Assembly: GCA_003416985.1 (NCBI GenBank) | Contig: QVIN01000002.1 | Location: 372,001 to 436,000, forward strand | Source of the DNA: Duganella sp. BJB480 | Lineage (GTDB): Bacteria; Pseudomonadota; Gammaproteobacteria; Burkholderiales; Burkholderiaceae_D | Length of the DNA: 64,000 nt | Direction of reading: 5' to 3' | Part shown: positions 36,475 through 62,142 of the stretch, in pieces | Layout: each line of letters begins with the position of its first letter | Numbering within the stretch: position 1 is the stretch's first letter | Notes under the pieces: model-generated | What the model saw: only the letters and a program-made list of their open reading frames with translations | What the model was told of the DNA's origin: nothing | Databases searched by the model: none | Position numbers and translations under genes: made by a program

Positions 36475-36513
36475 GAAAAAATAATTGCGGTCCGTTGTCT
36501 TTTTTATTATTGT
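36475..36513 (+). promoter_or_regulatory. Regulon-type promoter (AT box + TTGCGG, 17 nt, TATTGT)
   Basis: The box reads AAAAATAATTG, with the left part diverged from TTTTCATAATTG. The -35 is TTGCGG (36485-36490), followed by 17 nt and TATTGT (36508-36513). It faces a small ORF with a good ribosome site at 36545, which suggests a gene once stood here. Confidence 0.5.
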
Positions 36514-36544
36514 CGTCACTGCCGACACATAAAAAAGGAGCGCC

Positions 36545-36814
36545 ATGATCCCCGCCGCCACGCTAGATCCCGCCGTCGACCTTGCCCATTCGAAGTCCCG
36601 CACCGCGAGTGTGGATGCATCGAAGGGCGGCATGCTGAACGCCTGCGCGCGGTGGCAGGCCGACCGCAAGATACTCTGCATGCGCGTCACCGGCTGGCGC
36701 GAGAAGGCCATCACGGACCAGGCGGTTCAGCGCCGGCGGGCATGCGCTGCGGTCAAGACCCTTCGCAAGAACCGGAAGCGTTCTTGTTGGCCTGGGTGCC
36801 GCCCGCTTTCCTGA
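36545..36814 (+). CDS. Small unrecognised ORF, 89 aa, possibly a gene remnant
   Basis: Preceded by AAGGAG with correct spacing and by a regulon-type promoter, yet the protein (basic, Cys-containing, ending CRPLS) matches no family I recognise. Its last 62 nt run antisense into the 3' end of the convergent hypothetical gene, which is unusual for a real gene. It may be the 5' stub of a deleted glycosidase-locus gene, or noise. Confidence 0.25.
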   Translation: MIPAATLDPAVDLAHSKSRTASVDASKGGMLNACARWQADRKILCMRVTGWREKAITDQAVQRRRACAAVKTLRKNRKRSCWPGCRPLS

Positions 36815-37238
36815 TTGTTGCACGTACCTGTTCGACCAGGTCGTTTTGCAGATGCATGGGGACGGAATTCCAGCTTCCGTCCAGATACGATTGGTTGAGG
36901 TACTTTTGACCGAATCTGACTGATATATCAGGGCCTTCCTGGAAATGGAAAAGGAGCTTGTTTCGAACTTCGAAATTCGGCCTCGGATCATTGGCGTCTT
37001 GCGGCACATCCCGCGCCGCCTCCGCCAGTTTCAGCAGCTTCGAGGATGTCTCGGTATCGCCGAACGTATATGCGCAACCGATCTTCTCTAAAATGGCATC
37101 GTCAATACGCGTTCCGAAAGCCACGCCGTTAGCTACAAAAATAATATCCACGGACGCTGGCGCTGCGCCTTGCTCAGCGGAGCAATGGAACGGGGACAGC
37201 AAGGCAAGCGCCAGCGCCGGTATCGACAAGTTCTTCAT
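36753..37238 (-). CDS. Exported hypothetical protein, 161 aa
   Basis: Signal peptide (LLSPFHCSAEQ), then a mixed region (VDIIFVANGVAFGTRIDDAI) and two Cys residues that could form a disulfide. No known domain was recognised. It begins 6 nt after the stop of the lipoprotein gene, so the two form an operon. Transcription is opposite to the flanking glycosidase genes. Function unknown; cell-envelope location is predicted. Confidence 0.7.
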   Translation of the reverse strand: MKNLSIPALALALLSPFHCSAEQGAAPASVDIIFVANGVAFGTRIDDAILEKIGCAYTFGDTETSSKLLKLAEAARDVPQDANDPRPNFEVRNKLLFHFQEGPDISVRFGQKYLNQSYLDGSWNSVPMHLQNDLVEQVRATIRKAGGTQANKNASGSCEGS

Positions 37239-37244
37239 ATTCGC

Positions 37245-37985
37245 CTATAGCGGGCATGCGCTGTAGCCGTGCTGGTCCTGGAACAAGCAGCTCTTGCGCA
37301 CGTACTTCGCGTCGACCAGGTTCAGGATGCGCGTGGTCGCGCCGTCCAGCTTGGCGATGCGCTCGACCAGCACCGCCTTGCCGTCGACCTTGGCGTCCAC
37401 CGCATACAGGGTCGGCGCAGCCCAGTCCGCAAAGGCCAGCTGGTACCCCCCTTTCGGCTGCGACAGCATGACAAAATAAACCGCCCCCTGGTTGGCCGAC
37501 AGGTTCGTGCAATAGTAGCGGTCCGAGATGATGTAGTCCTTCACGCCATCGCCGTTCAGGTCGCGATGATCGGCCATCAGCGCCTGCCCCACCGTCTTCC
37601 TGCCGTAGCCGTGCTGCTTGTGGCAGGCGGCCTCTTCGTCCTCCCCCATCGCTTCCTGGCATGCGGACTTGTCGCCGAGCTGCTTGACCGCCAGCTGTGC
37701 CGAGCAGGTATTGAGCGCGCTGCCAAGCTCCGCCCCCGTCTTCGGCCATTGCTTGAGCTGCGCCAGCAGGGCCTGCGCCACCGGCTCGGGCACATAGTCC
37801 GGCTCGCTGGACTTGACCACCCGGACCTTCTCGATATTCCGGTCGGGGCCGCTGACGGCCAGCGGCTCCAGTTTCGCGATGCGGATATCCTCGGCAGCGA
37901 CCTGCGGCGTCTTGGGCGTGCAAGCGAGCAGCAGCAGCGAGCTAGCCAGGCCCAGGAGAATGGCGGGTGTGCCGTACTGTTTCAT
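37245..37985 (-). CDS. Putative lipoprotein with a DxNxDGxxD motif, 246 aa
   Basis: Lipobox LLLLAC with Cys22 as the probable lipidation site. The body contains DLNGDGVKDYIISD, like the calcium-binding loops of FG-GAP/EF-hand repeats, and several Cys. AGGA lies 8 nt before the ATG. It is followed closely by the 161-aa exported protein. Probably a periplasm-facing lipoprotein; function not recognised. Confidence 0.72.
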   Translation of the reverse strand: MKQYGTPAILLGLASSLLLLACTPKTPQVAAEDIRIAKLEPLAVSGPDRNIEKVRVVKSSEPDYVPEPVAQALLAQLKQWPKTGAELGSALNTCSAQLAVKQLGDKSACQEAMGEDEEAACHKQHGYGRKTVGQALMADHRDLNGDGVKDYIISDRYYCTNLSANQGAVYFVMLSQPKGGYQLAFADWAAPTLYAVDAKVDGKAVLVERIAKLDGATTRILNLVDAKYVRKSCLFQDQHGYSACPL

Positions 37986-38051
37986 TTATTGGTCCTGAAA
38001 ATGGATGATCGGCGCACGTCCCGGCGGTGAAATCATACTCATGGTCGGTGA

Positions 38052-38089
38052 TTTTCATAATTGCGGTCGCACGGCGGCTCTGCAATGAT
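38052..38089 (+). promoter_or_regulatory. Regulon promoter of the esterase-GH31 unit
   Basis: TTTTCATAATTG (38052-38063) runs into the -35 TTGCGG (38061-38066). A 17-nt spacer leads to AATGAT (38084-38089). Drives the esterase gene starting at 38139. Confidence 0.65.
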
Positions 38090-38138
38090 GAAGCGCCCAA
38101 AATACCGGGATCAAAAGTATAACAAAGGAGATCACATC

Positions 38139-39035
38139 ATGCGTTCATGGATACTGGCCCTACTGCTCGTGGCCTCGGCCGGCGCCGGCGCCCAGGGCAA
38201 CGTCGTCACCCTCTGGCCGAGCGGCTTCCCCGGCCCGCACCCGCAGCTGGGGCCGGAACGGCTGGACGACGAGCGGATCAGCAACGTCAGCGTCCCCACG
38301 CTGACCGTGTATCCCGCCTCGTACGATAGGCCGGCCCACGCCGCCGTCATCATTTGCCCCGGCGGCGGCTATGAGATCCTGTCCTTCACCCGCGAGGGCC
38401 ACCAGTACGCCCAATGGCTGTCCAACCTGGGCATCACCGCCTTCGTGCTCAAGTCGCGCCTGTCCGGCTACGGCCATCCCGCGCCGCTGCAGGACGTGCT
38501 GCGCGCGATCCGCCTGGTGCGCTCGCAGGCCGCGCAATACGGCGTGGCGCCGGACCGGATCGGCGTCATGGGCAGCTCGGCCGGCGGACACCTGGCCGCC
38601 AGCGCCTCCACCCTGTACAACTTGCCGGCCGGCCGTGGCGGCGACGCGCTCGACGCCGTCAGCGCGCGCCCGGACTTCGCCATGCTGATGTATCCCGTGA
38701 TCTCGATGGAGTCGGCGGTCACGCACGCCGGCTCGCGCCGGGCGCTGCTCGGCACGTCGCCGTCCGCCGAGCTGGTGCGGCAGATGTCGCTCGACCAGCA
38801 GGTCAACGCGCAGACCCCGCCGACGCTGCTGATGCACTCCCAGGACGACGGCGCGGTGCCGGTCGATAACAGCATCCTGTACTTCCAGGCCCTGACCCGC
38901 GCCCACGTGCCGGCCGAGATGCTGTTGTTCGAGCACGGCGGCCACGGCATGGGCATGCGCGCCGGCCAGGGCACGGCATCGAACTGGCCGCGCCGCGCCG
39001 AAGAGTGGCTGCGCGACCGCAAACTGATTCCATAA
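38139..39035 (+). CDS. Alpha/beta hydrolase, acetyl-xylan-esterase-like
   Basis: A 298-residue exported hydrolase (signal peptide ending GAGAQ). Oxyanion motif CPGGGYEILS, nucleophile GSSAGGHLAA, acid Asp in HSQDDGAVP and His in EHGGHGMGM form a full triad of the BD-FAE/esterase-lipase family that deacetylates plant oligosaccharides. AAAGGAG fixes the ATG at 38139; upstream in-frame codons are non-coding. GH31 follows after 31 nt. Role: removing acetyl groups before glycosidase attack (inference). Confidence 0.87.
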   Translation: MRSWILALLLVASAGAGAQGNVVTLWPSGFPGPHPQLGPERLDDERISNVSVPTLTVYPASYDRPAHAAVIICPGGGYEILSFTREGHQYAQWLSNLGITAFVLKSRLSGYGHPAPLQDVLRAIRLVRSQAAQYGVAPDRIGVMGSSAGGHLAASASTLYNLPAGRGGDALDAVSARPDFAMLMYPVISMESAVTHAGSRRALLGTSPSAELVRQMSLDQQVNAQTPPTLLMHSQDDGAVPVDNSILYFQALTRAHVPAEMLLFEHGGHGMGMRAGQGTASNWPRRAEEWLRDRKLIP

Positions 39036-39066
39036 CCATCCCATGTACAACAATTCAGGAGACAAC

Positions 39067-41415
39067 ATGACTATGCATCACCGGCGCAAGACCCTGGCCG
39101 CCTCGATTTCCCTGATCGCGCTCGGCGCCGCCGCGTCGGCCCAGGCCGCGCCGATCGCCACGCTGGACCGCAACGGCGCCTGGGTCTCGGTCGAGGCCTA
39201 CGGGCCGAACGTGGTCCGCGTCACGCTGGCCGCCGACAAGGCCGAGGCGCTGAAGGCCGGCGGCTACGGCATCCTGGCCGGCGGCGCCGACAACGCCGGT
39301 TTCCGCCACACCGGCGGCAAGGACGGCGACACCTTCAGCTCGTCCGCGCTGAGCCTGCACGTGGCGCCGGCGCCCGCGCCGCACGTGCCGTCCATGAGCG
39401 AGAAATATTTCGCCTCGACGCTGGCGCCGGTCGCGCTGCAGGTGAAGAACGCCAAGGGCGAAGTGGTGCTCGACATGACAGGCTGGGATCTGGCGCCGCA
39501 AACCGTCAACACCGAGAAGACCTACCAGGCTAGCGCCTCGTTCAGCGCGCCGGCCGACGAGCACTACTACGGCATGGGCCAGAACCAGGAATCGATGGGC
39601 CCGCTGGACCTGCGCGGCCGCGTCATCGACTGCAAGCACTGGTACGACGCGCCGGCCGGCGAGACCGTGTGCGTGCCGTTCATGGTGTCGTCCAAGGGTT
39701 ACGGCATCGTCTGGGACAACCCGTCGCCGACGCGCTTCATCGCCGGCATCAACGGCCGCACCGCGTTCCAGTCCAGCGTGGGCGAGCGCGTCAGCTTCTT
39801 CGTCATCACCGGCAACACGCCGGAGGAACTGTATTCGGGCTACGCGCGCGTGACCGGCAAGACGCCGATCCCGCCGAAGGCCGCGTTCGGCCTGATCCAG
39901 TCCAAGGCGCGCTACGAGAGCCAGCAGGAAGTGCTGCGCGTAGCCAACACCTACCGCCAGAAGAAATATCCGCTCGACATCATGGTGGTGGACTGGTTCT
40001 ACTGGACCCGCATGGGCCAGCTGGACATCGACCCGGCGCAGTTCCCCGACCCGGACGCCATGAACAAGGAACTGCACGGCCTGGGCATGCAGTCCATCAT
40101 TTCGTTCTGGCCGCGCTTCGAGTCTTCGGGCCGCTATTTCAACGAGCTCGATGCGAAGGGCTACTTCCTGAAGGACAAGGACGGCAAGACCGTCGACGGC
40201 CTGCCGTCGCGCTCGGACCGCACCGGCGCGCTGATCGACTCCACCAATCCGGCGGCCCGCAAATGGTTCTGGGAACACGCGCGCGACAACGTGATGTCGC
40301 ACGGCTTCGATTACCCATGGCTGGATGAGACCGAGCCCGACCTTGTACCGGACGGCTACTTCTATTCGATCGGCTCAGGCGACCGCTACCACAACGTCTA
40401 CCCGCTGCTGCACGTCGAAGGCTTCGCCGAGAACATGCGCGCGTGGAAGCCGAACAAGCGCGCCATGATCCTGTCGCGCGCCGCCTACCTGGGCTCGCAG
40501 CGCACCGGCGCGCTGTTCTGGTCGTCCGACATCAGTCCGTCGTGGGAAGCGCTGACGCGCCAGATCCCGACCGGCCTGAACATGACGGCCTCCGGCATCG
40601 CCTACTGGGGCAACGACATCGGCGGCTGGCAGTGGCTGCCGCAGTCGACCAAGGCCACCAAGGCGCCGCTGCTCGACCCGGCCGGCGGCACCGACACGGT
40701 CGGCCAGAACCACGACTATCCTGAACTGTTCACGCGCTGGTTCCAGTACGGCACCTTCCTGCCGACCTTGCGCGTGCACGGCGACCGCAAGCACACGGAG
40801 CTGTGGGAATTCGGCACGCAGGCCGAACCCATCCTGGCCCGCTACGACCGCCTGCGCTACCAGCTGCTGCCCTACATCTACAGCCAGGCCAAGGCGACCT
40901 ACGACAGCGGCGCGCCGTTCATGCGGCCGCTGTGGATGGACTTCCCGAACGATCCGAAGGTGGCCGACATCGGCACGCAGTACATGTTCGGGCCGGCGTT
41001 CCTGGTCGCGCCCGTGACCGAGCAGGGCCAGACGCAGAAGGATGTCTACCTGCCGGCCGGCAGCGACTGGTACAACTTCTGGACCAACGAGAAGCTGGCA
41101 GGCGGACGCTGGGTCAAGGTGGCGGCGCCGATCGACCAGATCCCGGTGTTTGTGCGGGCCGGCGCCATCGTGCCGCTGGGCTCGGAGATCCAGTCGACCG
41201 CCGAGCGCCAATCGGTCGCCGAAATCCGGGTCTACCCCGGCAAGGATGGCGACTTCGCGCTGTATGACGACGACGGCGTGTCCTACGATTATGAAAAAGG
41301 CAAGGGAACGACGGTCCGGCTGCACTGGAATGACGCCACCGGCCGCCTGAACGCGAGCGGCGACGGCGAAGTGGCCCGCAAGGCGCCGAGCCTGGTCAAG
41401 GTCGCAGGAAAATAG
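39067..41415 (+). CDS. GH31 alpha-xylosidase/alpha-glucosidase
   Basis: A 782-residue exported GH31 enzyme. Signal peptide (SAQAAPIA), N-terminal sandwich, catalytic barrel with nucleophile Asp in WLDETEPDL and acid/base Asp in FWSSDISPSW, then C-terminal beta domains (YDDDGVSYDYEKG). GH31 proteins with this layout are often alpha-xylosidases acting on xyloglucan oligosaccharides; the nearby XylR and SSS transporters support xylose release. Alpha-glucosidase activity cannot be excluded. AGGAG gives the start at 39067; it forms an operon with the esterase. Confidence 0.9.
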   Translation: MTMHHRRKTLAASISLIALGAAASAQAAPIATLDRNGAWVSVEAYGPNVVRVTLAADKAEALKAGGYGILAGGADNAGFRHTGGKDGDTFSSSALSLHVAPAPAPHVPSMSEKYFASTLAPVALQVKNAKGEVVLDMTGWDLAPQTVNTEKTYQASASFSAPADEHYYGMGQNQESMGPLDLRGRVIDCKHWYDAPAGETVCVPFMVSSKGYGIVWDNPSPTRFIAGINGRTAFQSSVGERVSFFVITGNTPEELYSGYARVTGKTPIPPKAAFGLIQSKARYESQQEVLRVANTYRQKKYPLDIMVVDWFYWTRMGQLDIDPAQFPDPDAMNKELHGLGMQSIISFWPRFESSGRYFNELDAKGYFLKDKDGKTVDGLPSRSDRTGALIDSTNPAARKWFWEHARDNVMSHGFDYPWLDETEPDLVPDGYFYSIGSGDRYHNVYPLLHVEGFAENMRAWKPNKRAMILSRAAYLGSQRTGALFWSSDISPSWEALTRQIPTGLNMTASGIAYWGNDIGGWQWLPQSTKATKAPLLDPAGGTDTVGQNHDYPELFTRWFQYGTFLPTLRVHGDRKHTELWEFGTQAEPILARYDRLRYQLLPYIYSQAKATYDSGAPFMRPLWMDFPNDPKVADIGTQYMFGPAFLVAPVTEQGQTQKDVYLPAGSDWYNFWTNEKLAGGRWVKVAAPIDQIPVFVRAGAIVPLGSEIQSTAERQSVAEIRVYPGKDGDFALYDDDGVSYDYEKGKGTTVRLHWNDATGRLNASGDGEVARKAPSLVKVAGK

Positions 41416-41586
41416 GCGTAAAACCGAATCTGCCCCCACCCAAACAATATAGCTGCATGCAAAAGTGGTATTGGAAATTATAGGTGGAAATCGCCTAAGA
41501 TCATCCATTGGCAGATTCATCAATAAAATGGGCACGGCCGCAGCTTGGGCCGTCAATCCGGAGACAATCTTTTTCGCGAGTACCGC

Positions 41587-43260: not shown

Positions 43261-43263
43261 CCA

Positions 43264-49585: not shown

Positions 49586-49623
49586 ATTGTGCCTGTGGGG
49601 CGCAGGCCGGGCAATTATGAAAA
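49586..49623 (-). promoter_or_regulatory. Regulon promoter of GH3
   Basis: On the minus strand TTTTCATAATTG (49623-49612), -35 TTGCCC (49614-49609), 17 nt, -10 CACAAT (49591-49586), then 34 nt to the ATG. Confidence 0.65.
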
Positions 49624-49655
49624 TGACGAATCTCCGGAACGATATTCCGCAGCGG

Positions 49656-49689: not shown

Positions 49690-52404
49690 TTATTTGAAGC
49701 TGTAGTCCAGGCTGACGTAGACAAAGCGGCCGCGCGGATCGCCCCAGCTGTCGTTGTAGCCCAGCGAGGAACCGGGGTCGAAGGCCGGGTCGCGGTTGAA
49801 CACGTTGTTGGCGCCGACGCGGATCACCGCGTTCCTGATGCCGGCATAGCTCACCGACGCGTCCATCGTGGCGGTTGCCGGAATGCGGCGACCCTTGGCA
49901 TAGAAGTCATACCATTGGTTCTGCACCGCCGACGGCGAACGATCGACCTTGGTGCCGGCCACGTACTTGACGATGCCGGTGGCGCTCCACGGTCCCAGGT
50001 CCCAGTTCACGCCGACGTTCGCCAGCACGCGCGGGTTGTTGTACTCGCCGGCGTCGCACGAGGTGTTGTTCGGGCAGTTGATGTAGACGTTATCGGCCAG
50101 CAGCACCGTGTCGTAGCGGATCGTGTAGTTGGCGTCGCCGAACACCTTGAAGCGGCCCAGCTTATCGGTGCGGAAGGTGTAGGACGCGTCCAGGTCGATA
50201 CCCGAGGTGTGCGACTCGAAGCGGTTCACCCAGCCGGTCTTGATGTTGGACAGCTCGCCGCGCAAAGGCCCCAGCCGCGCCCGGTCCGCCGCCGACAGCG
50301 CCGCGTAGGCCGCGATGTCGTCGGCCGTGACGTCCTTGCGGGTCACGTGGTCCTTGTAGGCGCCGTCCTCGTTGTCGAGCACCGTCGTGGTATCGAGGAT
50401 GTCTATCTTGTTCTTCCACTTGATGTCGTAGTAGGTCAGGCCGATGTTCAGGTCCTTGAGCGGCTCGATGACGAAGCCGATGTTGTACTGGTTCGACTTC
50501 TCCGGCTGCAGGTCCTTGGTGCCGACGTTGGAAGCCTTGACCTGACGGGTGCAGTACTGATCGAAATACACATCGCCTTCCACGCAGCGATGCGGGTCCT
50601 TGGTCTGGTAGAAGGCGTCGCGGCCCTGGCTGAAGCGCTGCGGCAGCGACGGCGCCACCATGCCGGTGCTGTAGTTCGCGCGCAGCATGACCTCTTTGGT
50701 CGGCTTCCACTTCAGGCCGAGCTTGGGATTGGTGGTGGAACCGGCCAGCTCGTATTTGTCGTAGCGCACGGCGGCCTGGGCCTCCAGCGTCTTCAGCAGC
50801 GGCAGGCTCAGCTCCGCATACACGGCCGACAGCTTTTCCGAACCGGAGATCGGCGGCAGCACGGCGTACTGGCCCAGCAGGCCCTGCTGCCAATCCTGCG
50901 ACGGCGTGTACGACAACGAATTCTTGCGCAGCTCCGAGCCCAGCGACACGCCGATCTTCCCGCCCGGCAGCTCGCCGAACTCGGTCCCGGCCTGCAGCTT
51001 GATGGAATCGGTCTTGCTGCGGGTCTTCACATACATCTCGCCCGACAGCTCGCGGATCAGCGCGTCCGAATTGCTGTTCGCGCCGAAGGGATTGAAGCGC
51101 CCGTCGTCGACCGCCTTGTTCAGCTCCTCCAGCTTGTAGGCGCCCAGCGTGTCGGTGCGGCCGCGCTCCTCGCCGTGCGACAGCGTCGCCGACCAGTCCC
51201 AGCCCGCCATCTCGCCTTTGAGGCCGGTCAGCAGCCAGAGGTTGTCGACGTCGGTCTTGATGCCGCCCTCGTAGACCGGGAAATCGCGCCGCACCGTCAC
51301 CGGCTTGCCGTAGGTGTTGAAGGGGTTCGAGGCCGGGATCACCAGGTTGTTGCGCGCTCGGTTCTGCAGCCACGACGACTGGCCGACGATGCGCTTGTCG
51401 AAATTGGTGTAGAAGGCGTTGGCGAACAAGGTCAGGTCCGGCGCGATGTCCCAGTTCAGCGCGGCCGTGGCGCCGGCGCGGCGCGAGGGCTTGACCAGGT
51501 CGGTGAATTCCGCCGTCGCCGACAGGCAGCCGTTGCGGGTCGGCGAAGGGAACCATTCGGCGCCGCTCGGATACGGCAGCTTGGAGCCGGGCAGGCAGCC
51601 CGGATCGGGGAAGCGGTTGCCGCCGATCGACAGCGTGCCGGCGTCGGTGCCGTGGGCGCCGTAGACGTTGGCGTACTGCAGGCCGCCGCTGGCGCCGAAG
51701 TCGATGTGGTTGGCCCAGTCGCGGTCGGTGCCCTTGATGCGCTTGGTGTCCTCGTACATCGCCGCGTAGGTCAGGTTGAATTTCTGCGTGGCGCGGTCGC
51801 CGTAGCCGCCGGCCACCGACAGCTTGCGCACGTCGCCGCCGCCCAGCGTGGTGGCGCCGTAGCTGGTGCTCAGGTCCGTGCCCTGGTAGTTCTGGCGCAT
51901 GATGAAGTTGATCACGCCGCCGACCGCGTCGGTGCCGTAGATGGCCGAGGCGCCGTCCTTGAGCACCTCGATGCGCTCGATCGCCGCCAGCGGCAGCATG
52001 TTCAAGTCCACCGAGGTGAAGCCGTTGGAATTGTCCGAGCCGGACACCGGCAGGCGGTTGCCGTTCAACAGGATCAGGGTCGGCATGCCGCGCAGGCTGG
52101 CCGTGGTGGCGCCGTTGCGGAAGTCGTTGCCGCTGCCGAATTCGCTGCCGTTGCCGCCCACCCCAGGCAGGTTGCGCAACACGTCCAGCACCGAGGTCGC
52201 GCCGGAACGCTTGATGTCTTCCTTGGTGATCAGGGTCATCGGCGAAACGCCCTCCTGCGCGACCCGCTTGATGTTACTGCCGGTGATCTCCACCCGCTCC
52301 ATTTTCGGCTCCGGCTGCTCCTGCGCCATCGCCACCGCATGGGCCGACAACAACGCCAGCGCCAACTTCACCCAGCGCACACCTATTTTTTCCTGAAACA
52401 TCAT
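49690..52404 (-). CDS. TonB-dependent outer-membrane receptor
   Basis: A 904-residue receptor. Signal peptide (AHAVAMAQEQ), TonB-box region MERVEITGSNIKR, plug domain (about 50-165: SVLDVLRNLPGVGG, IERIEVLKDGASAIYGTDAVGG), then a 22-strand-type barrel ending in FVYVSLDYSFK with a C-terminal aromatic pattern. The SNIKR-type N-terminus is common in large-substrate (oligosaccharide or peptide) receptors of proteobacteria. Flanked by GH3 and GH29, so it probably imports oligosaccharides of the locus. AGGAGA precedes the ATG. No regulon box is evident upstream. Confidence 0.93.
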   Translation of the reverse strand: MMFQEKIGVRWVKLALALLSAHAVAMAQEQPEPKMERVEITGSNIKRVAQEGVSPMTLITKEDIKRSGATSVLDVLRNLPGVGGNGSEFGSGNDFRNGATTASLRGMPTLILLNGNRLPVSGSDNSNGFTSVDLNMLPLAAIERIEVLKDGASAIYGTDAVGGVINFIMRQNYQGTDLSTSYGATTLGGGDVRKLSVAGGYGDRATQKFNLTYAAMYEDTKRIKGTDRDWANHIDFGASGGLQYANVYGAHGTDAGTLSIGGNRFPDPGCLPGSKLPYPSGAEWFPSPTRNGCLSATAEFTDLVKPSRRAGATAALNWDIAPDLTLFANAFYTNFDKRIVGQSSWLQNRARNNLVIPASNPFNTYGKPVTVRRDFPVYEGGIKTDVDNLWLLTGLKGEMAGWDWSATLSHGEERGRTDTLGAYKLEELNKAVDDGRFNPFGANSNSDALIRELSGEMYVKTRSKTDSIKLQAGTEFGELPGGKIGVSLGSELRKNSLSYTPSQDWQQGLLGQYAVLPPISGSEKLSAVYAELSLPLLKTLEAQAAVRYDKYELAGSTTNPKLGLKWKPTKEVMLRANYSTGMVAPSLPQRFSQGRDAFYQTKDPHRCVEGDVYFDQYCTRQVKASNVGTKDLQPEKSNQYNIGFVIEPLKDLNIGLTYYDIKWKNKIDILDTTTVLDNEDGAYKDHVTRKDVTADDIAAYAALSAADRARLGPLRGELSNIKTGWVNRFESHTSGIDLDASYTFRTDKLGRFKVFGDANYTIRYDTVLLADNVYINCPNNTSCDAGEYNNPRVLANVGVNWDLGPWSATGIVKYVAGTKVDRSPSAVQNQWYDFYAKGRRIPATATMDASVSYAGIRNAVIRVGANNVFNRDPAFDPGSSLGYNDSWGDPRGRFVYVSLDYSFK

Positions 52405-52587
52405 GCTCGTCTCCTAGTGATGACGTCCCACATCGAGCGTGCGGGATCGTAATAATCAAACTGCCGGTTTGCTTCGATCGCGTGCTCAACGAGGCTATCG
52501 AATCGCAACAGAGCTTACGTGGCCCGGATGGGCACGTCTTGGCAGTCTTGACACTGGAAAGGAACGAAATCGGCACAACCGGGGCCG

Positions 52588-52616
52588 AAACGAAACATGG
52601 CTCCCGAAGGAGCCAT
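52588..52616 (-). terminator. Intrinsic terminator after GH29
   Basis: On the minus strand, 8-bp stem ATGGCTCC with UUCG-type tetraloop and GGAGCCAT, followed by GTTTCGTTTC. It lies 31 nt beyond the GH29 stop and separates it from the TonB receptor promoter region. Confidence 0.7.
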
Positions 52617-52646
52617 GCTTGAACACCACGCGCGGACGGCTGAAAA

Positions 52647-54302
52647 CTAGACGATCCGCAGCGCGAAGGCGTAAGACAGCGCCGGGGCCGTGCCGGGCAG
52701 CGTCACCCGCAGGCCGTCGGCCGCCTGCTCGAAGGCCAGCGCCTGGCCGCCGCCCACCAGCTCGACCTTCGCGATGCCGCGCTTCAGGTGCGGGCTGCCG
52801 GCGCGCATGGACTTGATCGTCACCTTGCCGTCGGCCGGCCAGCCCATGACGAAGGCGTACACCGCGTCGCCTTTGGCGGTGAAGCGCACGTCGGCAGCCG
52901 AGAACGGCTTATTCTTGCCCTCGTTGAAGCCCGCGCCCGACATCGGCGCCGAAGCCTCCTCCATCACCGGCCCCTCGCCGAACACCGCCCACGGACGGCT
53001 GTCGTAGATGCCCTCGCTGCCGACCGCCATCCAGCGGCCGATTTCTTCGACGATGTTGCGCTCCAGCGGATCGATGGTGCCGTCGCCGCGCACCGGCACG
53101 TTGAGCAGCAGGTTGCCGTTCTTGCTGACCACGTCGATCAGCGTGTGCACCACCGTCTGCGCGCTCTTGTACGACTTGTTGTTGTAGACGCTGCGGTCGT
53201 AGTGCCAGTTGCCGATGCAGGTGCAGGTCTGCCATGGAAGCGGCTCGATGGCGTTGCTCTGGCCGCGCTCGATGTCCCACACCATGGTCTTGCGCTGCTG
53301 CTCACTGAGGATCTTGCCGTTGACCACGGCCTCCAGCTTGCCCTTCTTCGCGATGCTGCGGTTGTACATGTGCGCGGTCAGGCGCAGGCCGACGTCGCTG
53401 ACCGGGTGCAGCGGCAGCACGGTATCGTCGAAGTAAACCAGGTCGGGATCGTAGTTGTTGATCAGCTCCATGGTGCGGTCGTAGAACTTCTCGCAGTAGG
53501 CCTGGTCCGGGGTGGATGCGCCGTCGCCCCAGTGCCACTGGTCGCCGCCCACGCCTCCGCCGCCGCCCTTGCTCAGCGGATGGTTCTGCGCGTACAGCGC
53601 CTGCGGATCGAGGCCGTCCCACCACGTGCCCTTGCCGTCGGCCTTGGTCAGGTGGCCATCGTAGGGTATGCCGGCGTACGGACCTTGCTTGTCGGCGCCC
53701 TGCGAAGTCTCGTACCAGGTCCAGGCGTGGGCCGCGTGCACGCTGACGCCGAAACGCAGCCCCTGCTTGCGGGCCGCCTTGGCCCAGCCGCCGATCAGGT
53801 CCTTCTTCGGGCCAACCTTGGTCGAGTTCCACTGCGGCTGGTACTTGCTGGCGTACAGGTCCAGATTGTCGTGGTGGTTGGCCAGGGCCACGAAATATTT
53901 CGCGCCGGCCTTCTTGTACAGCGAGACCAGGGCGTCGGGATCCCAGCGCTCGGCCTTCCACTGGTGGATCACGTCCTTGAAGCCGACCTTGGACGGGTGG
54001 CCATACTTCTCCACGTGGTAGCGGTAGTGATCGCTGCCCTCTTCGTACAGGCCGCGCGCATACCAGTCGCCATGTTCCGCCTCGCACTGCGGGCCCCAGT
54101 GGGCCCAGATGCCGAACTTGGCGTTGCGGAACCAGTCCGGGGTCTGGTAGGCCGCCAGCGAATCCCAGTCCGCCGTGAAGGGGCCGGGGGCCATCTTCTC
54201 ATGGCCGCCGAACGGCGCCGCTTGGGCGGCGAAGGTAAAGGGGGATAGCGCCAGCGCCGGAATGGCCGCGCCCAGGTGCCGCAATAATTCTCGTCTCTTC
54301 AT
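52647..54302 (-). CDS. GH29 alpha-L-fucosidase
   Basis: A 551-residue exported GH29 enzyme. The N-terminus MKRRELLRHLG resembles a Tat signal. FRNAKFGIWAHWGPQC and HHDNLDLY are fucosidase landmarks; the nucleophile Asp is in DLVYFDDTVLPL. A C-terminal beta-sandwich follows (FTAKGDAVYAFVMGWP). Retaining release of alpha-L-fucose is expected. The start at 54302 has GGAA 7 nt upstream; starts at 54314 and 54368 are alternatives, the latter overlapping the promoter. Confidence 0.9.
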   Translation of the reverse strand: MKRRELLRHLGAAIPALALSPFTFAAQAAPFGGHEKMAPGPFTADWDSLAAYQTPDWFRNAKFGIWAHWGPQCEAEHGDWYARGLYEEGSDHYRYHVEKYGHPSKVGFKDVIHQWKAERWDPDALVSLYKKAGAKYFVALANHHDNLDLYASKYQPQWNSTKVGPKKDLIGGWAKAARKQGLRFGVSVHAAHAWTWYETSQGADKQGPYAGIPYDGHLTKADGKGTWWDGLDPQALYAQNHPLSKGGGGGVGGDQWHWGDGASTPDQAYCEKFYDRTMELINNYDPDLVYFDDTVLPLHPVSDVGLRLTAHMYNRSIAKKGKLEAVVNGKILSEQQRKTMVWDIERGQSNAIEPLPWQTCTCIGNWHYDRSVYNNKSYKSAQTVVHTLIDVVSKNGNLLLNVPVRGDGTIDPLERNIVEEIGRWMAVGSEGIYDSRPWAVFGEGPVMEEASAPMSGAGFNEGKNKPFSAADVRFTAKGDAVYAFVMGWPADGKVTIKSMRAGSPHLKRGIAKVELVGGGQALAFEQAADGLRVTLPGTAPALSYAFALRIV

Positions 54303-54339: not shown

Positions 54340-54377
54340 ATTGTCCGAGCAAGCGCATGGAGGCGCAATTACGAAAA
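54340..54377 (-). promoter_or_regulatory. Regulon promoter of GH29
   Basis: Minus strand: TTTTCGTAATTG (one change from the common box), -35 TTGCGC (54368-54363), 17 nt, -10 GACAAT (54345-54340), then 37 nt to the chosen ATG. Confidence 0.65.
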
Positions 54378-54426
54378 ACACCATTGCGACTCATAAAATC
54401 AGGCAACCCGTGCCCACGACGGAAAT

Positions 54427-55201: not shown

Positions 55202-55318
55202 ATGCAAACCACAAAAGTTTTTAGGAACGGCAACTCCCAGGCGGTCCGAATCCCCCTATCCGGGATTAAAAATCGAGAACTGGATCGGCAAATAAGCTGG
55301 CGAAAAATGGCACAATGA
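55202..55318 (+). pseudogene. Truncated VapB/AbrB-type antitoxin
   Basis: With GGAGG upstream, the frame starts MQTTKVFRNGNSQAVRIP, the classic DNA-binding start of VapB/MazE-type antitoxins. After Pro18 homology is lost and the frame ends at 38 residues. No toxin follows. A second toxin-antitoxin relic in the locus. Confidence 0.7.
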
Positions 55319-55361
55319 TGACGAACGGATCGCCATCGAACCAGATTCCAAGGGAGATATC

Positions 55362-55622
55362 ATGAAAAAACATTTTGTATTGCTGTTGACGGGAATGATG
55401 TTGGTCAGCGGCGGCGCGTCTGCCGCCGGCTGCGTCAAAGGCGCGGCGGCAGGTGCGGTTGTTGGCCACGTTGCGGGACACCATGCGGTTGCCGGGGCCG
55501 TGGGAGGTTGCCTGGTTGGCCGTCATATGGCCAAGGAGAAGGCAAAAAAAGAGAAGGCGGAGGCTGACGCCAGGAAGGCGCAGCAGGCCCAGCAAAATCC
55601 TCAACAGGCTCCTGCGAAGTAA
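55362..55622 (+). CDS. Small exported glycine-zipper protein
   Basis: An 86-residue protein: signal peptide (GGASAAGC), a glycine-zipper segment (GAAAGAVVGHVAGHHAVAGA) and a charged Lys/Ala/Gln-rich tail. Probably envelope-associated. GGGAGAT precedes the ATG. Its end lies 10 nt from the convergent esterase. Confidence 0.72.
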   Translation: MKKHFVLLLTGMMLVSGGASAAGCVKGAAAGAVVGHVAGHHAVAGAVGGCLVGRHMAKEKAKKEKAEADARKAQQAQQNPQQAPAK

Positions 55623-55632
55623 TAGTGCCGCC

Positions 55633-57219
55633 TCACTGCGGCGCTGCGGACGCGCCACCACCTTGGCGGAAGATGAGCTGCGCATAGTGGTACAGGTTGT
55701 CCGCCCAGCTCTCGCGGTCGTGGCCATGCTCGTCCACGTTCCAGACGTGGGCGATGCCGTGCTCCTTCAGATAGCGATGCAACGTTTGCGAACCCGCGAT
55801 CAGCCCGTCCTGATTGCCGCAGGATAGGTACAACAGTCGTGGCTGGACGTGCCCGCTCTCAGGCAGCAGCGCGGCCGCCGCCTTCAGGTTGGGCGCCGCC
55901 GAGAAGGCGCCGACCCAGCCAAAGGTTTCGGGATGGCCCAGTCCGATGTTCAGCGACTGGGCGCCGCCCATCGACAAGCCGGCGATCGCGCGTTGCGCCC
56001 CACCGCTCAAGGTAGGATACCTGGCGTCGATGGCCGGCACCAGCACCTCCGGCAGCTCGCGCTCGAAGGCGGTGAAGCCGGCGATGTGCGCGGGCGTGAA
56101 GGTGCGTTCGCCCGGCGGCGGGCGGTCGTCGGCCAGCGCGCGGCCGTTGGGCATGACGACGATCATCGGCACCGCCTTGCCGTCGGCGATCAGGTTGTCG
56201 AGAATGGCCTGCGCGTGCACGTAGCCGCGCCATTCGTCGTGATTGCCGGCGATGCCATGCAGCAGATACAGCACCGGGTAGCGCCGCTGCGCCGTGTAGC
56301 CGGCCGGCAGGTAGACGTTGGCCTTGCGCCGCGTGCCGGTGATGCGGGACTCGTAGCTGAACTCCTCGATCCGGCCCTGCGCCACGCCCGCCCGCGCCTG
56401 GTCGAAGCCGGCCGGCGCGGCGGCGAAGGCACGCACGTCGTCGGCCGCCAGCACCACCGGCTGGGCCGGGCGCGGCTGATTGAGCAGGCGCTCGATGTCG
56501 GGCCGCATCGCGGCGGCCCAGATCCGGTATCCCTTTTCCGATAGATGCAAAAAGTCCGGCTGGTTCTCGGCCGACAGCGTGCCGTCCGCGCCGATGAAGT
56601 GCGCGCCGTAATCGTGGAAGAAGACGTGCTGACCATCGTCCAGCGTCGCCACCATTTTGTCGAGCGCGACGATGCGCTGGCGCACCGGCTCGTCGGGCTT
56701 GGCGCCGGACGGCAGCACGGCGTTGAGCAGGATGCGCGCGGCCGGATACTGCGTGCGCAACTTGGCGACCACGGCCTGGATGCCGCCGAACACCTGCTCC
56801 GGCGTCTCGCCGCACAGATTGAGGTTGTTCACGCCGATCAGCAGCACCACCAGCTTGGGCTGCAGGCGCGCGATGGCCGGGTCCTGCAGGCGCCACAGCA
56901 CGTTGCCGGTGTGGTCGCCGCCGATGCCGAAGTTGGCCGCCTTGAGCTGGCCGAAGTTGGCGTCCCACACCGGCTTGGACCACATCTCGGTGATCGAATC
57001 GCCGAGGAACATCACGTCGACATCGCCCTTGGCGGCGCGCGCCACCTGCTCCGCGTGCATGCCGCGCCAGCGCTCGATCGACATCCACGGGTACTCGACC
57101 GCGCGCGGCGCCGCCGTCAACGCGCACTGACGCGGGGTCTGGGCGGCGGGCGCATCGGCGGCGATGGCGCCTTGGACGGTCAATGCGGTCATCAACAACA
57201 GGGCCAGGCGGCTGGGCAT
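55633..57219 (-). CDS. Two-domain esterase: SGNH hydrolase + CE1 (esterase D-like)
   Basis: A 528-residue exported fusion. Signal peptide (VQGAIAADA). N-domain (about 40-270) is an SGNH hydrolase with Ser in FLGDSITEMW, Gly in GIGGDHTG, Asn in IGVNNLN and Asp/His in DFLHLSEKGY. C-domain (about 290-525) is CE1-like with LLHGIAGNHDEW, nucleophile GLSMGGAQS, Asp in CGNQDGL and His in DEHGHDRESW. Both triads look intact, so it could remove two kinds of ester (acetyl and feruloyl, or two acetyl positions) from plant polysaccharide. The start at 57219 restores the signal peptide. Confidence 0.88.
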   Translation of the reverse strand: MPSRLALLLMTALTVQGAIAADAPAAQTPRQCALTAAPRAVEYPWMSIERWRGMHAEQVARAAKGDVDVMFLGDSITEMWSKPVWDANFGQLKAANFGIGGDHTGNVLWRLQDPAIARLQPKLVVLLIGVNNLNLCGETPEQVFGGIQAVVAKLRTQYPAARILLNAVLPSGAKPDEPVRQRIVALDKMVATLDDGQHVFFHDYGAHFIGADGTLSAENQPDFLHLSEKGYRIWAAAMRPDIERLLNQPRPAQPVVLAADDVRAFAAAPAGFDQARAGVAQGRIEEFSYESRITGTRRKANVYLPAGYTAQRRYPVLYLLHGIAGNHDEWRGYVHAQAILDNLIADGKAVPMIVVMPNGRALADDRPPPGERTFTPAHIAGFTAFERELPEVLVPAIDARYPTLSGGAQRAIAGLSMGGAQSLNIGLGHPETFGWVGAFSAAPNLKAAAALLPESGHVQPRLLYLSCGNQDGLIAGSQTLHRYLKEHGIAHVWNVDEHGHDRESWADNLYHYAQLIFRQGGGASAAPQ

Positions 57220-57253
57220 GGGGATCTTCCTTTTCGATTCGGTGGGTGCAGCG

Positions 57254-57291
57254 ATTTTGCAACCGGCGCCGCGCCGTATCAATTATGAAAA
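57254..57291 (-). promoter_or_regulatory. Regulon promoter of the SGNH-CE1 esterase
   Basis: Minus strand: TTTTCATAATTG (57291-57280), -35 TTGATA (57282-57277), 17 nt, -10 CAAAAT (57259-57254), then 34 nt to the ATG. This copy has the best -35. Confidence 0.65.
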
Positions 57292-57449
57292 TCACCAACC
57301 TGCCCAGTGTTTCTTGTCAACCGCGCCACAGCGGCAAAGTTACCCGGCACAATAAGCGCCAGCAACTTCCGGCCCCGCTCGGACACGACGGACAGCGACT
57401 TCAGCGCGACTGTCCGCATTTGAGACTTAATCTTCCTACCGACTTCTTA

Positions 57450-59126: not shown

Positions 59127-59142
59127 GTCCCGGCCTGGCCCC

Positions 59143-59164
59143 AAGCCGCCCGTCTGGGCGGCTT
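59143..59164. terminator. Hairpin between the SSS copy 2 and xylR ends
   Basis: 9-bp stem AAGCCGCCC-GTCT-GGGCGGCTT between two convergent genes. There is no T-tract on either strand, so termination is likely but not certain. Confidence 0.5.
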
Positions 59165-59178
59165 GTCGGGCAGGTCCT

Positions 59179-60381
59179 CTAGCCGTTCGCGGACAGCAGC
59201 TCCGGCGCCTCGAACTCGCGGTCCCGGTAGGCGCGCGGCGTGCAGCCCAGTTCCCGCTTGAACACCAGGTGCATGTACTGGGTCGAGCCGAAGCCGCAAC
59301 CCAGCGCCACCTCGGCGATGCTGCGCTCGCCGCTGTCCAAACCGGCCTTGGCCGCCTCCAGCTTGTAGCGCAACACCACGTCATGCACGCTGCACCCCAG
59401 CTCCTGCCGGAAATACGCCTCCAGCGACGATCGTGAAACCCCCAGGTACATGGCCACCTGGTGGCTCTTGAGGCTTTCGCAGGCATGCTGGCGGATGTAG
59501 TAGCAGGCCCGCATCACCAGCGGATGCCCGGCCGGCTGGTGCAGGCTGGACGCGAGCACCTTGATGCCGGCCGGCGGCACCAGCACCGGCGCGTTGGCCA
59601 CCCGCACGCGATGCAGCTTCTGGCTCAGCAGATGCGCGGCGGTGCGCCCCATCTCGCGCGCGCCGTGCATGACGGAGCTCAGCGGTATGGGCGTGAGCAG
59701 GCGCACCAGCGGATCGTTGTCGATGCCGACCAGCGCCACCTCGCCCGGCACCGCGATGCCGGCCATGCTGCAGGCCTGCAGCAACTGGCGGGCGCGGGCG
59801 TCGGTCACGGCGATGATGCCGATCGGCTTGGGCAGGCTGCGCAGCCATTCGACCTGGCCGTGCAGCGCCTCGTCCCACGAACAGGGGGCGGTCGCGCAGC
59901 CGCGGAAGACCTCGGCTTCGCTGCGGTCGTTCCACATCAGGCGGCGGAACGCGTGCTCGCGCTCCTGGGCCCAGCGGTTCTCCGGCGCCTCGGGCAGGCT
60001 GAACATGGCGAAGCGCTGCAGGCCGACGTCGATCAGATGCTCGCGGGCCTGCTTGACCAGCTGGAAATTGTCGGTCGCCACGTAGGGCACGCCGGGCGGA
60101 TACTGGTCCTCGGCGGCGTAGGAGCCGCCCACCGCCACCACCGGCAGCTGGCAATCGGCCAGGGCCGCCGCCACGTCCGGGTCGTCGAAGTCGGCGATGA
60201 TGCCGTCCCCCTGCCAGTTGCCGATGCCGGCCAGGCGCAGGCAAAAGTCCTCCTCCAGAAACACTTCCCAGGCCACCCGCGTGCTGCCCAGATAGTCGGC
60301 GATGCCTGCCAATACCTCCCTGTCAAATGTCTTGTTGGCGTTGAACAGCAGTGCGATCCGGTATGTTTTCGTGGCGCCCAT
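59179..60381 (-). CDS. xylR: XylR-type regulator (LacI-like sensor + AraC HTH)
   Basis: A 400-residue regulator with the E. coli XylR layout: N-terminal periplasmic-binding-like sensor (about 5-280, YRIALLFNANKTFDREVLAG, ALVGIDNDPL) and C-terminal AraC HTH (about 290-390, HQVAMYLGVSRSSLEAYFRQ). It probably activates sugar genes on binding xylose. It has no ribosome site of its own; its ATG lies 1 nt after the stop of a 22-codon leader ORF. Confidence 0.9.
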   Translation of the reverse strand: MGATKTYRIALLFNANKTFDREVLAGIADYLGSTRVAWEVFLEEDFCLRLAGIGNWQGDGIIADFDDPDVAAALADCQLPVVAVGGSYAAEDQYPPGVPYVATDNFQLVKQAREHLIDVGLQRFAMFSLPEAPENRWAQEREHAFRRLMWNDRSEAEVFRGCATAPCSWDEALHGQVEWLRSLPKPIGIIAVTDARARQLLQACSMAGIAVPGEVALVGIDNDPLVRLLTPIPLSSVMHGAREMGRTAAHLLSQKLHRVRVANAPVLVPPAGIKVLASSLHQPAGHPLVMRACYYIRQHACESLKSHQVAMYLGVSRSSLEAYFRQELGCSVHDVVLRYKLEAAKAGLDSGERSIAEVALGCGFGSTQYMHLVFKRELGCTPRAYRDREFEAPELLSANG

Positions 60382-60382
60382 A

Positions 60383-60451
60383 TCACGTCGGCGCCTTGCT
60401 TGAATCGATGCCCACGGGGCCGCCGGCCCCCCTCATTGGTGTCCAGGTCAT
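60383..60451 (-). CDS. 22-aa leader peptide coupled to xylR
   Basis: An ATG at 60451 has an excellent AAGGAGGAG site (60463-60455). The frame encodes MTWTPMRGAGGPVGIDSSKA plus PT and stops at 60385-60383, leaving one nucleotide before the xylR ATG (TGATATG). Translation of xylR is thus probably by termination-reinitiation. Too short for ordinary gene finders; expression is inferred from the ribosome site and geometry. Confidence 0.55.
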   Translation of the reverse strand: MTWTPMRGAGGPVGIDSSKAPT

Positions 60452-60601
60452 AGTCTCCTCCTTCTCGTTATTTTTCTGTGTACCCTCTCGGCTATGCCGG
60501 AGCGTTACATAGAGAATAGAAATTTCCGCATGGCGGCAGGTAGCGCTCAGTGGGAAATTGCTAGCAAAACGAGGGAAGTTGAAGAATTAATGACGATAGT
60601 G

Positions 60602-61759
60602 TTAGGCCTCGGCCACCGGGCAGGCGCTGCGGAATGCCTTGGGCGTGCAGCCGTACTCCTCCTTGAACAGCTTGTTGAAATAGGAAACATTGGCATAGCC
60701 GACCGAATAAGCGATTTCCGCCACCGTCGCCGTGTCCTTCTCGGCCAGCAGCCGCGCGGCCTCGGTCAGCCGCAGCTTGTTTAAATAGCCGCTGAAGGTG
60801 TAGCCGAATTCGGTCTTCAGGATCTCGTAGACCTTGTTGCGGTTGACCCCGGTTTCCTCGACCACCCGGTCCAGGTCCAGCTCGGCGTCGGCGTAGCGGC
60901 TGGCGATGAACTGCAGGATGGTGGTCTTTTCCTTGTCGCGGTGCGGCTCCAACGAGAGTTGCTGGTATGCAACGAACGGCATATCCCTTTGCAGCTTGAC
61001 CTTGACATCGTCGATCACGGCCAGCGCGTGCTGCCGGAAGAACCACACGCCGAAGCCGCTCCAGACGACGATCAGCAACACCCCGAACAACACCAGATAG
61101 CGGCGGTCGCGGCCTTTCAGGTTCAGCTCGCGGATTTGCACCTCCACACTGACCTCGCGCGGACTTTGCGGCGTGCTGCCGATGGTGATCTTGGGCACCT
61201 TGTCGAGTTTATAAGAATGTTCCGACAAGGCCTGCTGCTTCATCAGGAACCACCATTGCGGCGTTTCCAGGCGCGTCAGGTCCAGCTCGACGCGCGACTC
61301 GTTCTCGTCGCAGGAAAAGTAGGACAAGGGGCTGCGGTAGCCCAGGAACTCCTGCTGGTCGGAGCGCCTGCCGACAAAAGTGGGCAGGCTGAGCACCAGC
61401 GTATTGGCCGGCGAGCATTTCACCAGCAGGGAAATCGACGAATAGCGCGACAGGTCGAGGTGGACCGGCTGTCCCTTGCCGTCCTTGAAATTCAGTTCGG
61501 CGCCGGCGAAGCCCTCGTCCGTTTTGGCGATGCGGAAATCAAAACGCAGCCGTTGCGCGGCCTCGTACAGGTGCATGGTCGCCTTGCCGCCGGGACGGGT
61601 GTCCCAGCTCTGCTCGCCCTTCCACGCCAGCGGGCTGTCGGCCGCGGGCAGCAGCGATACCTGCAAATAGCTCTGTTTAACGCAAATGTAGCCGAGGAGG
61701 ACGCACGCCGCGATAAGGCAAAAGCACCCGACTAGTGCCTTTTTATAAAATTCATGCAT
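60602..61759 (-). CDS. Membrane-bound AraC-family regulator with periplasmic sugar-sensor-like domain
   Basis: A 385-residue protein. Membrane span 1 (8-28), a periplasmic beta-rich domain (29-218; SWDTRPGGKATMHLYEA, LDLSRYSSISLLVK) resembling carbohydrate-binding jelly rolls, span 2 (220-241, LVLFGVLLIVVWSGFGVWFF), a cytoplasmic linker and AraC HTH (about 283-378; VAEIAYSVGYANVSYFNKLF). A one-component regulator that senses outside the inner membrane. Its own promoter carries the locus box, so it is the best candidate for the regulon activator (inference). Confidence 0.88.
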   Translation of the reverse strand: MHEFYKKALVGCFCLIAACVLLGYICVKQSYLQVSLLPAADSPLAWKGEQSWDTRPGGKATMHLYEAAQRLRFDFRIAKTDEGFAGAELNFKDGKGQPVHLDLSRYSSISLLVKCSPANTLVLSLPTFVGRRSDQQEFLGYRSPLSYFSCDENESRVELDLTRLETPQWWFLMKQQALSEHSYKLDKVPKITIGSTPQSPREVSVEVQIRELNLKGRDRRYLVLFGVLLIVVWSGFGVWFFRQHALAVIDDVKVKLQRDMPFVAYQQLSLEPHRDKEKTTILQFIASRYADAELDLDRVVEETGVNRNKVYEILKTEFGYTFSGYLNKLRLTEAARLLAEKDTATVAEIAYSVGYANVSYFNKLFKEEYGCTPKAFRSACPVAEA

Positions 61760-61876
61760 TGAAAGCCTGGATCAGAGAAGATGACTGTCGCGCACGAAAC
61801 GCTGGCTGCCGGTACGCGATGTTACCCGGCCACTGATCATCTGGCAATGCGAGCACGGCTGGATGGCAACACTCCC

Positions 61877-61927
61877 AAAAAAAACCGGGCGGCCTAAGCC
61901 GCCCGAAAATACTACCGGAGAGGTAGT
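61877..61927 (-). terminator. Intrinsic terminator and second hairpin inside the AraC leader
   Basis: On the minus strand a hairpin ACTACC-TCTCC-GGTAGT (61927-61911) is followed by CGGGCGGC-TTAG-GCCGCCCG (61905-61886) and a run of eight T after GG (61884-61877). This is a canonical terminator, but it sits between the AraC promoter and the AraC start. It may yield a short RNA of about 110 nt or act as an attenuator. Confidence 0.7.
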
Positions 61928-61997
61928 TGGAGAGCACTAAACGGGGACTGCCCGGCGCACCCGGCATCGCGATGCCGCCGCGCAGTCCTTGAGATAC

Positions 61998-62035
61998 ATT
62001 GTGGGAGTTGCCTCCGCCTGCCGCAATTGTTAAAA
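61998..62035 (-). promoter_or_regulatory. Regulon promoter of the AraC gene
   Basis: Minus strand: TTTTAACAATTG (62035-62024), -35 TTGCGG (62026-62021), 17 nt, -10 CACAAT (62003-61998). Same architecture as the glycosidase promoters; implies autoregulation. Transcript start about 61991. Together with the leader terminator and the GH42 promoter this accounts for the gene-free 61760-62170. Confidence 0.6.
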
Positions 62036-62101
62036 CCACCAACATGGGAGTGAAATTGCGCAGCCGGCGGCGGATCACAATAAAACATTGAAGGCATTGG
62101 C

Positions 62102-62142
62102 AATTTTCATAATTGCGCGGCCACGCCGCGAGTCTCCACAAT
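62102..62142 (+). promoter_or_regulatory. Regulon promoter of GH42
   Basis: TTTTCATAATTG (62104-62115), -35 TTGCGC (62113-62118), 18 nt, -10 CACAAT (62137-62142), then 28 nt to the ATG. Confidence 0.65.

Follow-up and report, generated by a model that had tools for sequence, protein, structure and literature searches.

We analysed a window of 64,000 nucleotides from Duganella sp. BJB480 (GenBank assembly GCA_003416985.1, contig QVIN01000002.1, positions 372,001 to 436,000 of the forward strand), a stretch of 67.1% GC in which several genes for carbohydrate-active enzymes are preceded by promoters that share an AT-rich 12-mer box fused to the -35 element. The original prediction had placed seven such boxes in one sugar locus and had named an AraC protein or XylR as their possible reader. 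We found that the box is real but is merely the downstream half of a tandem operator of about 40 bp, and we consider it very probably the downstream half-site of an operator for a XylR-type class II activator, whose regulon would join xylose genes to enzymes suiting xyloglucan. The features of the window that bear on this reading are listed here, with the genes assigned by Pfam unless stated otherwise.

36473..36512, + strand: doubtful degenerate operator, whose upstream half is the site originally placed at 36475
38024..38089, + strand: operator 38024-38063 (box 38052-38063) with -10 AATGAT at 38084-38089, before the genes for a BD-FAE-type esterase and GH31
38139..41415, + strand: BD-FAE-type esterase (38139-39035) and GH31 (39043-41415)
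47293..49551, - strand: GH3
49586..49651, - strand: operator 49612-49651 with -10 CACAAT, before the GH3 gene
49690..54302, - strand: GH29 (52647-54302) and, downstream, a TonB-dependent receptor (49690-52404)
54340..54405, - strand: operator 54366-54405 with -10 GACAAT, before the GH29 gene
55633..57219, - strand: double esterase (GDSL/SGNH plus CE1-type; Pfam and PDB)
57254..57319, - strand: operator 57280-57319 with -10 CAAAAT, before the double esterase
59179..60381, - strand: XylR1, with a PBP1_XylR sugar domain and an AraC-type DNA-binding domain, the proposed reader of the operator
60602..61759, - strand: membrane AraC regulator, in which two predicted hydrophobic helices flank a CBM11-like domain, followed by a helix-turn-helix (Pfam and structure prediction)
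61877..61948, - strand: conserved RNA module made up of a CU-rich strand, a hairpin (ACTACC-TCTCC-GGTAGT), a GC-rich terminator hairpin and eight T
61998..62063, - strand: operator 62024-62063, the weakest of six, with -10 CACAAT, feeding a putative short terminated RNA and not directly the AraC gene
62076..62142, + strand: operator 62076-62115 with -10 CACAAT and an 18-nt spacer, before GH42 and divergent from the 61998 promoter
62171..64000, + strand: GH42, running off the window

Six of the seven proposed box sites stood. The exact 12-mer (TTTTCATAATTG) occurs at 38052-38063 (+), 49612-49623 (-), 57280-57291 (-) and 62104-62115 (+), a one-mismatch box (TTTTCGTAATTG) at 54366-54377 (-) and a two-mismatch box (TTTTAACAATTG) at 62024-62035 (-), and each of the six ends in the TTG that starts the -35. 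The predicted spacing was borne out as well: the -10 begins 20 nt after the TTG in five of the six (a 17-nt spacer), and the single 18-nt spacer belongs to the -10 at 62137-62142, 21 nt after its TTG. Most sites had the expected CACAAT-like -10, the deviating hexamers being AATGAT at 38084-38089 and GACAAT at 54340-54345. The seventh site had been misregistered and is weak, as the element at 36475 is an upstream half-site, the downstream half (TTTTTATTATTG) lies at 36501-36512, and AAAAGG stands where the -10 is expected, so that it has no good -10. At up to three mismatches the window holds 28 matches to the 12-mer, against a mean of 6.96 and a maximum of 15 in 100 shuffles. When the window was scored with a matrix built exclusively on other genomes (20 non-redundant sites), its top seven scores were the seven sites (48.4, 40.7, 38.6, 36.3, 35.2, 22.6 and 16.0), with the six sound ones ranging from 22.6 to 48.4; the 36473-36512 site scored 16.0 to 20.3 and is inseparable from chance, because simulated maxima over 30 windows reached 18.4. 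Elsewhere no window score exceeded about 10, consistent with the claim that the GH97-GH92 genes and both SSS genes lack the box; in relatives, a GH97 gene is preceded by the operator (3 sites). The two SSS-family transporters (41587-43260 and about 57447-59126, +) have similar N-termini, and neither has an operator of its own in the window.

The whole operator reads AAWATCATT-N7-TTGGTGATTTTCRYAATTG, with half-sites 22 bp apart, a final TTG that opens the -35, a usual spacer of 17 bp and a poor -10, CANAAT. Column counts over 31 non-redundant sites gave AAWATCATT-N3-C-N3-TTGGTGATTTTCRYAATTGC followed by CANAAT, the -10 columns of this count not being independent because the sites were picked with the -10 in the pattern. 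Across the organism's own genome (7.27 Mb, 36 contigs), with the reversed pattern as control, the bare 12-mer at up to one mismatch gave 22 matches versus 5 for the control, and is therefore partly noise at that scale. Extending the 12-mer upstream and adding the -10 gave 6 matches versus 0, degenerate letters gave 11 versus 0, and the extended block without the -10 gave 18 versus 1. The 11 degenerate-pattern matches comprise four window sites (49586, 54340, 57254 and 61998) and seven elsewhere, while 38052 and 62104 were missed because their -10 differs in letters or spacing. This strict operator-plus-CANAAT pattern proved too narrow as a measure of the regulon, since it misses TAGTAT promoters at xylA and xylF in addition to the window's 38052 and 62104 sites.

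The original prediction would have failed if the box were scattered without promoter phasing, and this could be examined on sequence. We took 106 distinct sites from loci that had been selected without regard to the -10, and counted five of the six letters of CANAAT or TAGTAT as a -10. Of these sites, 94 had one at 20 or 21 nt (71 and 23 sites, respectively; one each at 18 and 19 nt, and 10 with none), as compared to 2 to 11 of the 106 for each of six offset ranges used as controls. These 94 sites have the layout of a class II promoter, in which the operator overlaps the -35 at a fixed distance from the -10. The 21-nt form recurs in 9/15 GH42-type promoters, 5/7 xylA promoters and 4/6 xylF promoters, and because of its recurrence in the GH42 type the 18-nt spacer of the window's GH42 promoter (62137-62142) looks selected or inherited.

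Of the two candidate readers, XylR is the one favoured by our comparisons. XylR1 has the domain architecture of E. coli XylR (PF22177, E-value 2.8e-43, with PF13377 and PF12833 by Pfam) and is 46% identical to it over 384 residues. The genome encodes just two full-length proteins of this type, 69% identical to each other (the next matches are single-domain), and both paralogues sit within operator-rich loci. In a survey of 145 family genomes, with XylR called at an E-value of 1e-90 or better, the strict pattern was found in 18 genomes and XylR in 32: 17 of the 32 with XylR had a strict site, versus 1 of the 113 without (Fisher p 1.5e-12), and the reversed control pattern matched once across all 145. 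We read 29 of the 31 XylR genes of other genomes, and all 29 had an operator within about 9 kb, 21 of them with one scoring at least 20 within the 4-kb stretch (many with a TAGTAT -10) and the other eight with a strict match 7.7 to 9.0 kb distant on the contig that carries the XylR gene. The operator precedes the gene for xylose isomerase (xylA) in seven relatives' loci and that for the xylose-binding protein XylF in a cluster of six sites, with one member of each passing the NCBIfam cut-off; together with a D-xylose 1-dehydrogenase in the organism's own genome, these place operators at genes of xylose catabolism and uptake. In 30 named Oxalobacteraceae loci (Massilia, Duganella, Rugamonas, Pseudoduganella, Telluria and other members) we found 92 operator matches, of which 2 were double-counted in overlapping loci; they fell in 29 of the 30 loci, and simulated copies gave 0. 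When 62 XylRs were placed in a tree, the window copy belonged to a clade of 25 (support 100/99), and the second XylR of the same genome lay outside it; for 23 of the 25, the locus also holds the membrane AraC gene, at most about 4.5 kb from XylR. It is likely that the operator is read by a XylR-type activator 46% identical to that of E. coli, and both paralogues may use the same operator.

Several observations weigh against this reading. Fifteen of the 32 XylR genomes lack the strict pattern; of these, 13 were read, all with a matrix operator in the 4-kb stretch, and 2 were unread. One genome (G125) has a single two-mismatch site and no XylR at the cut-off used, and in one locus (L159) no operator above threshold was found in 21 kb although a XylR is present. 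Some of the sites on which the operator matrix was trained had been picked by a pattern that included the -10. Across 83 non-redundant operators the downstream-half core TTTTCRTA agreed most closely with the upstream part when shifted by 22 (3.69 of 8, versus 1.12 to 2.63 at other offsets from 12 to 28), but halves paired across different sites gave an equal 22-bp peak (3.80 versus 3.69), so this peak reflects conserved columns and not matched halves within a site. Finally, the E. coli xyl region lends weak support: the half-site matrix places the xylA site, where CATAATTG by eye adjoins the -35, 14th among 16978 positions, and with the full matrix a coding position outscores it. As proof of operator identity we judged the E. 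coli sites too weak.

A role for the membrane AraC regulator (60602-61759) as reader of the box, whether by itself or jointly with XylR, is very improbable. Being AraC-type it could bind a tandem site, and it adjoins XylR1 in the window and shares a locus with XylR in 22 of the 30 named loci. However, a homologue at an E-value of 1e-12 or better was present in only 4/145 family genomes (two of them only partly) and in just 2/18 box-carrying genomes, the co-occurrence that led us to set this reader aside, and its DNA-binding domain shares 29% identity with the XylR one. That the sites are ordinary strong promoters or repeats sharing a spacer by descent is scarcely credible, for although genes of such loci can be copied along with their promoters, conservation is confined to the operator and the -10 while the intervening spacer varies freely, the gene families behind the sites are unrelated to one another, and the occurrence of the sites in different genomes follows that of XylR.

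The predicted class II geometry, a fixed-phase site overlapping the -35 with an AraC-family reader, was thus supported on sequence; the position and conservation of the operator are directly visible there, and a mechanism of the following kind may be proposed for XylR. Members of this family fuse a LacI/GalR-like sugar domain to an AraC DNA-binding domain. E. coli XylR binds D-xylose and activates transcription, and D-xylose is reportedly the ligand in its structure; in Duganella the ligand would probably be D-xylose or a xylose-bearing fragment. Ligand-bound XylR would occupy both half-sites, which are spaced by 22 bp; on the second of them, which overlaps the -35, the protein would lie against sigma and recruit sigma-70 RNA polymerase, compensating for a CANAAT -10 presumably too poor alone. 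With two XylR paralogues among such operators, the regulon would span xylose oxidation and uptake plus polysaccharide enzymes.

The idea of a single sugar locus turned out to be too narrow, as the operator is present at further loci of the same genome. Of the 18 extended-block matches, 14 lie upstream of the RNA unit or of genes for carbohydrate or xylose use, and all seven strict matches outside the window stand before other carbohydrate or xylose genes. The targets outside the window are the following.

Protein with a GDSL esterase domain and BNR repeats (probably GH74-type), then the second XylR
Fusion ending in D-xylose 1-dehydrogenase, with genes for a dehydratase and an ABC sugar-binding protein behind
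Run of TonB receptor, GH35/42-like, GH31, GH95 and GH2
GH5
GH29, with two tandem operators
SASA-type esterase, then alpha-galactosidase
GH43

The remaining extended-block matches are one before a tryptophan-halogenase-family gene that adjoins a gene for a BNR-repeat protein and three with no evident link. This weaker operator before the halogenase gene (G000:C21:441062, locus L029, where the BNR-repeat protein is encoded by the next gene) is also seen in L136 and L162, and a halogenase inside a plant-wall regulon is unexplained. The tandem operators before GH29 (G000:C21:465221-465289, loci L035 and L128) are 50 bp apart, the upstream one without an obvious -10. By Pfam the regulon includes GH31, GH29, GH95, GH42, GH2, GH3, GH5, GH43, a BNR-repeat protein and TonB receptors, which would put side-chain and backbone enzymes, a TonB receptor and an endo-acting enzyme under one control. 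The window GH31 scored 282.5 bits versus an alpha-xylosidase cut-off of 606, and the best PDB matches of the double esterase were to CE1-type and PAF-acetylhydrolase-type chains. Judged by its domains, the target set would suit acetylated, fucosylated xyloglucan plus xylose oxidation, so that a XylR activator regulon has apparently been extended from xylose to this putative substrate.

The enzyme promoters in the predicted target list held; the promoter at 61998, which had been assigned to the AraC gene, did not, as a strong intrinsic terminator follows after about 120 nt, ahead of that gene. With its own promoter and intrinsic terminator, the interval 61998-61877 encodes a candidate short RNA. 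Its operator (62024-62063) forms a divergent pair with that of GH42, within 62024-62115, the two being 12 bp apart between the RNA unit and GH42; comparable pairs occur in several relatives (L138, L140, L145 and L164). A model of the RNA module, run on 41 sources, gave 21 matches above 59 bits, 18 of them its own training sequences, and the 21 represent 20 loci (the window and L029 being one locus). Beyond these there was a weak match in L159, and the 145 family genomes held the organism's own copy and one weak match only. In 13 loci the operator ends 68 to 281 nt before the module, and L162 has a visible, sub-threshold operator. In six loci (L145, L146, L147, L148, L163 and L164) an operator-driven GH5 gene lies between operator and module, and L150 retains a GH5 piece with an internal deletion; another GH5, which shares 58% identity with the L145 one and has its own operator, is encoded elsewhere in the window's genome. 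Because the same promoter and terminator flank GH5 in relatives, loss of a GH5 gene from behind an operator promoter is the best account of the 61998 unit, and its product may be a remnant lacking GH5, a leader or a small RNA activated by XylR.

We give slightly less than an even chance to the first of these, in which the promoter is a non-functional remnant of the GH5 deletion, kept since its operator neighbours the divergent GH42 promoter. The six loci with GH5 before the same module and the truncated GH5 of L150 are consistent with this, as is the rank of the 61998 operator, the weakest of the window's six. An extended -10 (TG[CT]TATGAT) just upstream of 18/23 membrane AraC genes points the same way, since most of these genes thus need not use the operator promoter. 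So do the thin pair counts of the module: in a trimmed alignment of 17 sequences (leaving out L149 and the near-copies L138 and L142), in which Massilia-type rows and L148 were out of register in hairpin 1, 90.8% of cells were paired versus 88.1 when shuffled (0/500), and one pair changed on both sides versus 0.6 when shuffled (278/500). With 18 sequences aligned, RNAalifold recovered the terminator only in part, since hairpin 1 does not line up from one lineage to another. An exploratory comparison of duplex energies over 22 window start regions gave no target preference, the 10 taken as regulon (-16.8 to -32.1) not separating from 12 others (-14.9 to -44.0). The sole Rfam match to the region, sbrA, was taken as chance (18.6 bits versus a gathering score of 45, E-value 0.31). 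Against a dead remnant, several lineages that lack GH5 at this place have kept the operator, the -10 and both hairpins, as a remnant need not do; these lineages are the window, L136 and L162; L137 to L142 and L144; L143; L149; and L152.

Since promoter and module survive several GH5 losses, a functional RNA is possible, and we tentatively suggest that 61998 could make a XylR-activated small RNA, formerly the 3' end of the mRNA for GH5 (a putative endo-xyloglucanase), that has survived repeated gene loss and forms part of a three-part control of xyloglucan use. It is rather unlikely that the terminator (61877-61904) is an attenuator in a membrane AraC-XylR1 leader, with 61998 driving both genes when termination is overcome. 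A hairpin does stand before the terminator in the module, and the window, L136 and L162 lack the extended -10 near the membrane AraC gene, so that there the operator promoter may be the main AraC promoter. However, the module follows GH5 in six loci, in three of which (L145, L147 and L164) it lies 2.4 to 3.7 kb before the AraC gene, and no competing antiterminator was demonstrated. In L143, L146, L147, L148, L149, L153 and L154 the extended -10 upstream of membrane AraC (TGTTATGAT) is flanked by inverted-repeat arms of the TTGAACTGT / ACAGTTCAA type, an unexplained feature that may be an operator or an RNA hairpin. The membrane AraC regulator itself is predicted to contain a beta-sandwich between two helices (mean pLDDT 76.3, pTM 0.50); the sandwich is most like CBM11 (Foldseek E-value 9.5e-9, target TM-score 0.60 for 6r31 and 0.69 for 1v0a) and also resembles CBM30 and a complex I assembly factor. 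If the CBM11-like domain is periplasmic and glucan-sensing, the protein could be a glucan sensor anchored in the membrane.

Neither XylR nor class II sites are new. E. coli XylR is of the same family over its full length and is described in PMC7567609 as binding and activating under xylose, with two sites each at xylA and xylF, the xylF pair being separated by three bases in RegulonDB. By our own reading of the sequence, the E. coli half-sites are about 21 bp apart, versus 22 bp in the Duganella operator, and unlike E. coli, this Duganella genome has two XylR paralogues and many polysaccharide-enzyme targets. E. coli also has an annotated small RNA attached to a XylR-controlled gene, XylZ (3729386-3729545), which overlaps the end of xylA, whereas the 61998 candidate is tied to a different gene (GH5) and is stand-alone in the window. 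According to PMC8245568 and PMC4285296, the xyloglucan loci of Xanthomonas and Cellvibrio japonicus have a similar kit of GH31, fucosidase, beta-galactosidase, TonB receptor and acetylesterase; the latter source describes the C. japonicus locus as appearing to lack a substrate sensor or regulator, whereas in Duganella we propose a regulator and a shared operator, with the genes over several loci. Judging by the title of the report on it, XygS/XygR of Ruminiclostridium cellulolyticum likewise exerts positive control of xyloglucan use, but it is a two-component system of a Gram-positive bacterium as opposed to a one-component XylR-type activator. In the portions of the open-licence literature covered, we found no description of a XylR-type regulon over xyloglucan genes or of the 61998 RNA.

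For Gram-negative soil bacteria, these results point to a likely regulator of xyloglucan use and to its likely operator, and suggest that a xylose activator was recruited to a whole polysaccharide programme across several loci. The operator matrix can predict plant-wall genes from the promoter alone, and the 61998 RNA is a directly testable candidate. If the small RNA reading is true, xyloglucan use would be under a three-part control, with outer glucan sensing by the membrane AraC regulator, inner xylose sensing by XylR1 and an RNA arm.

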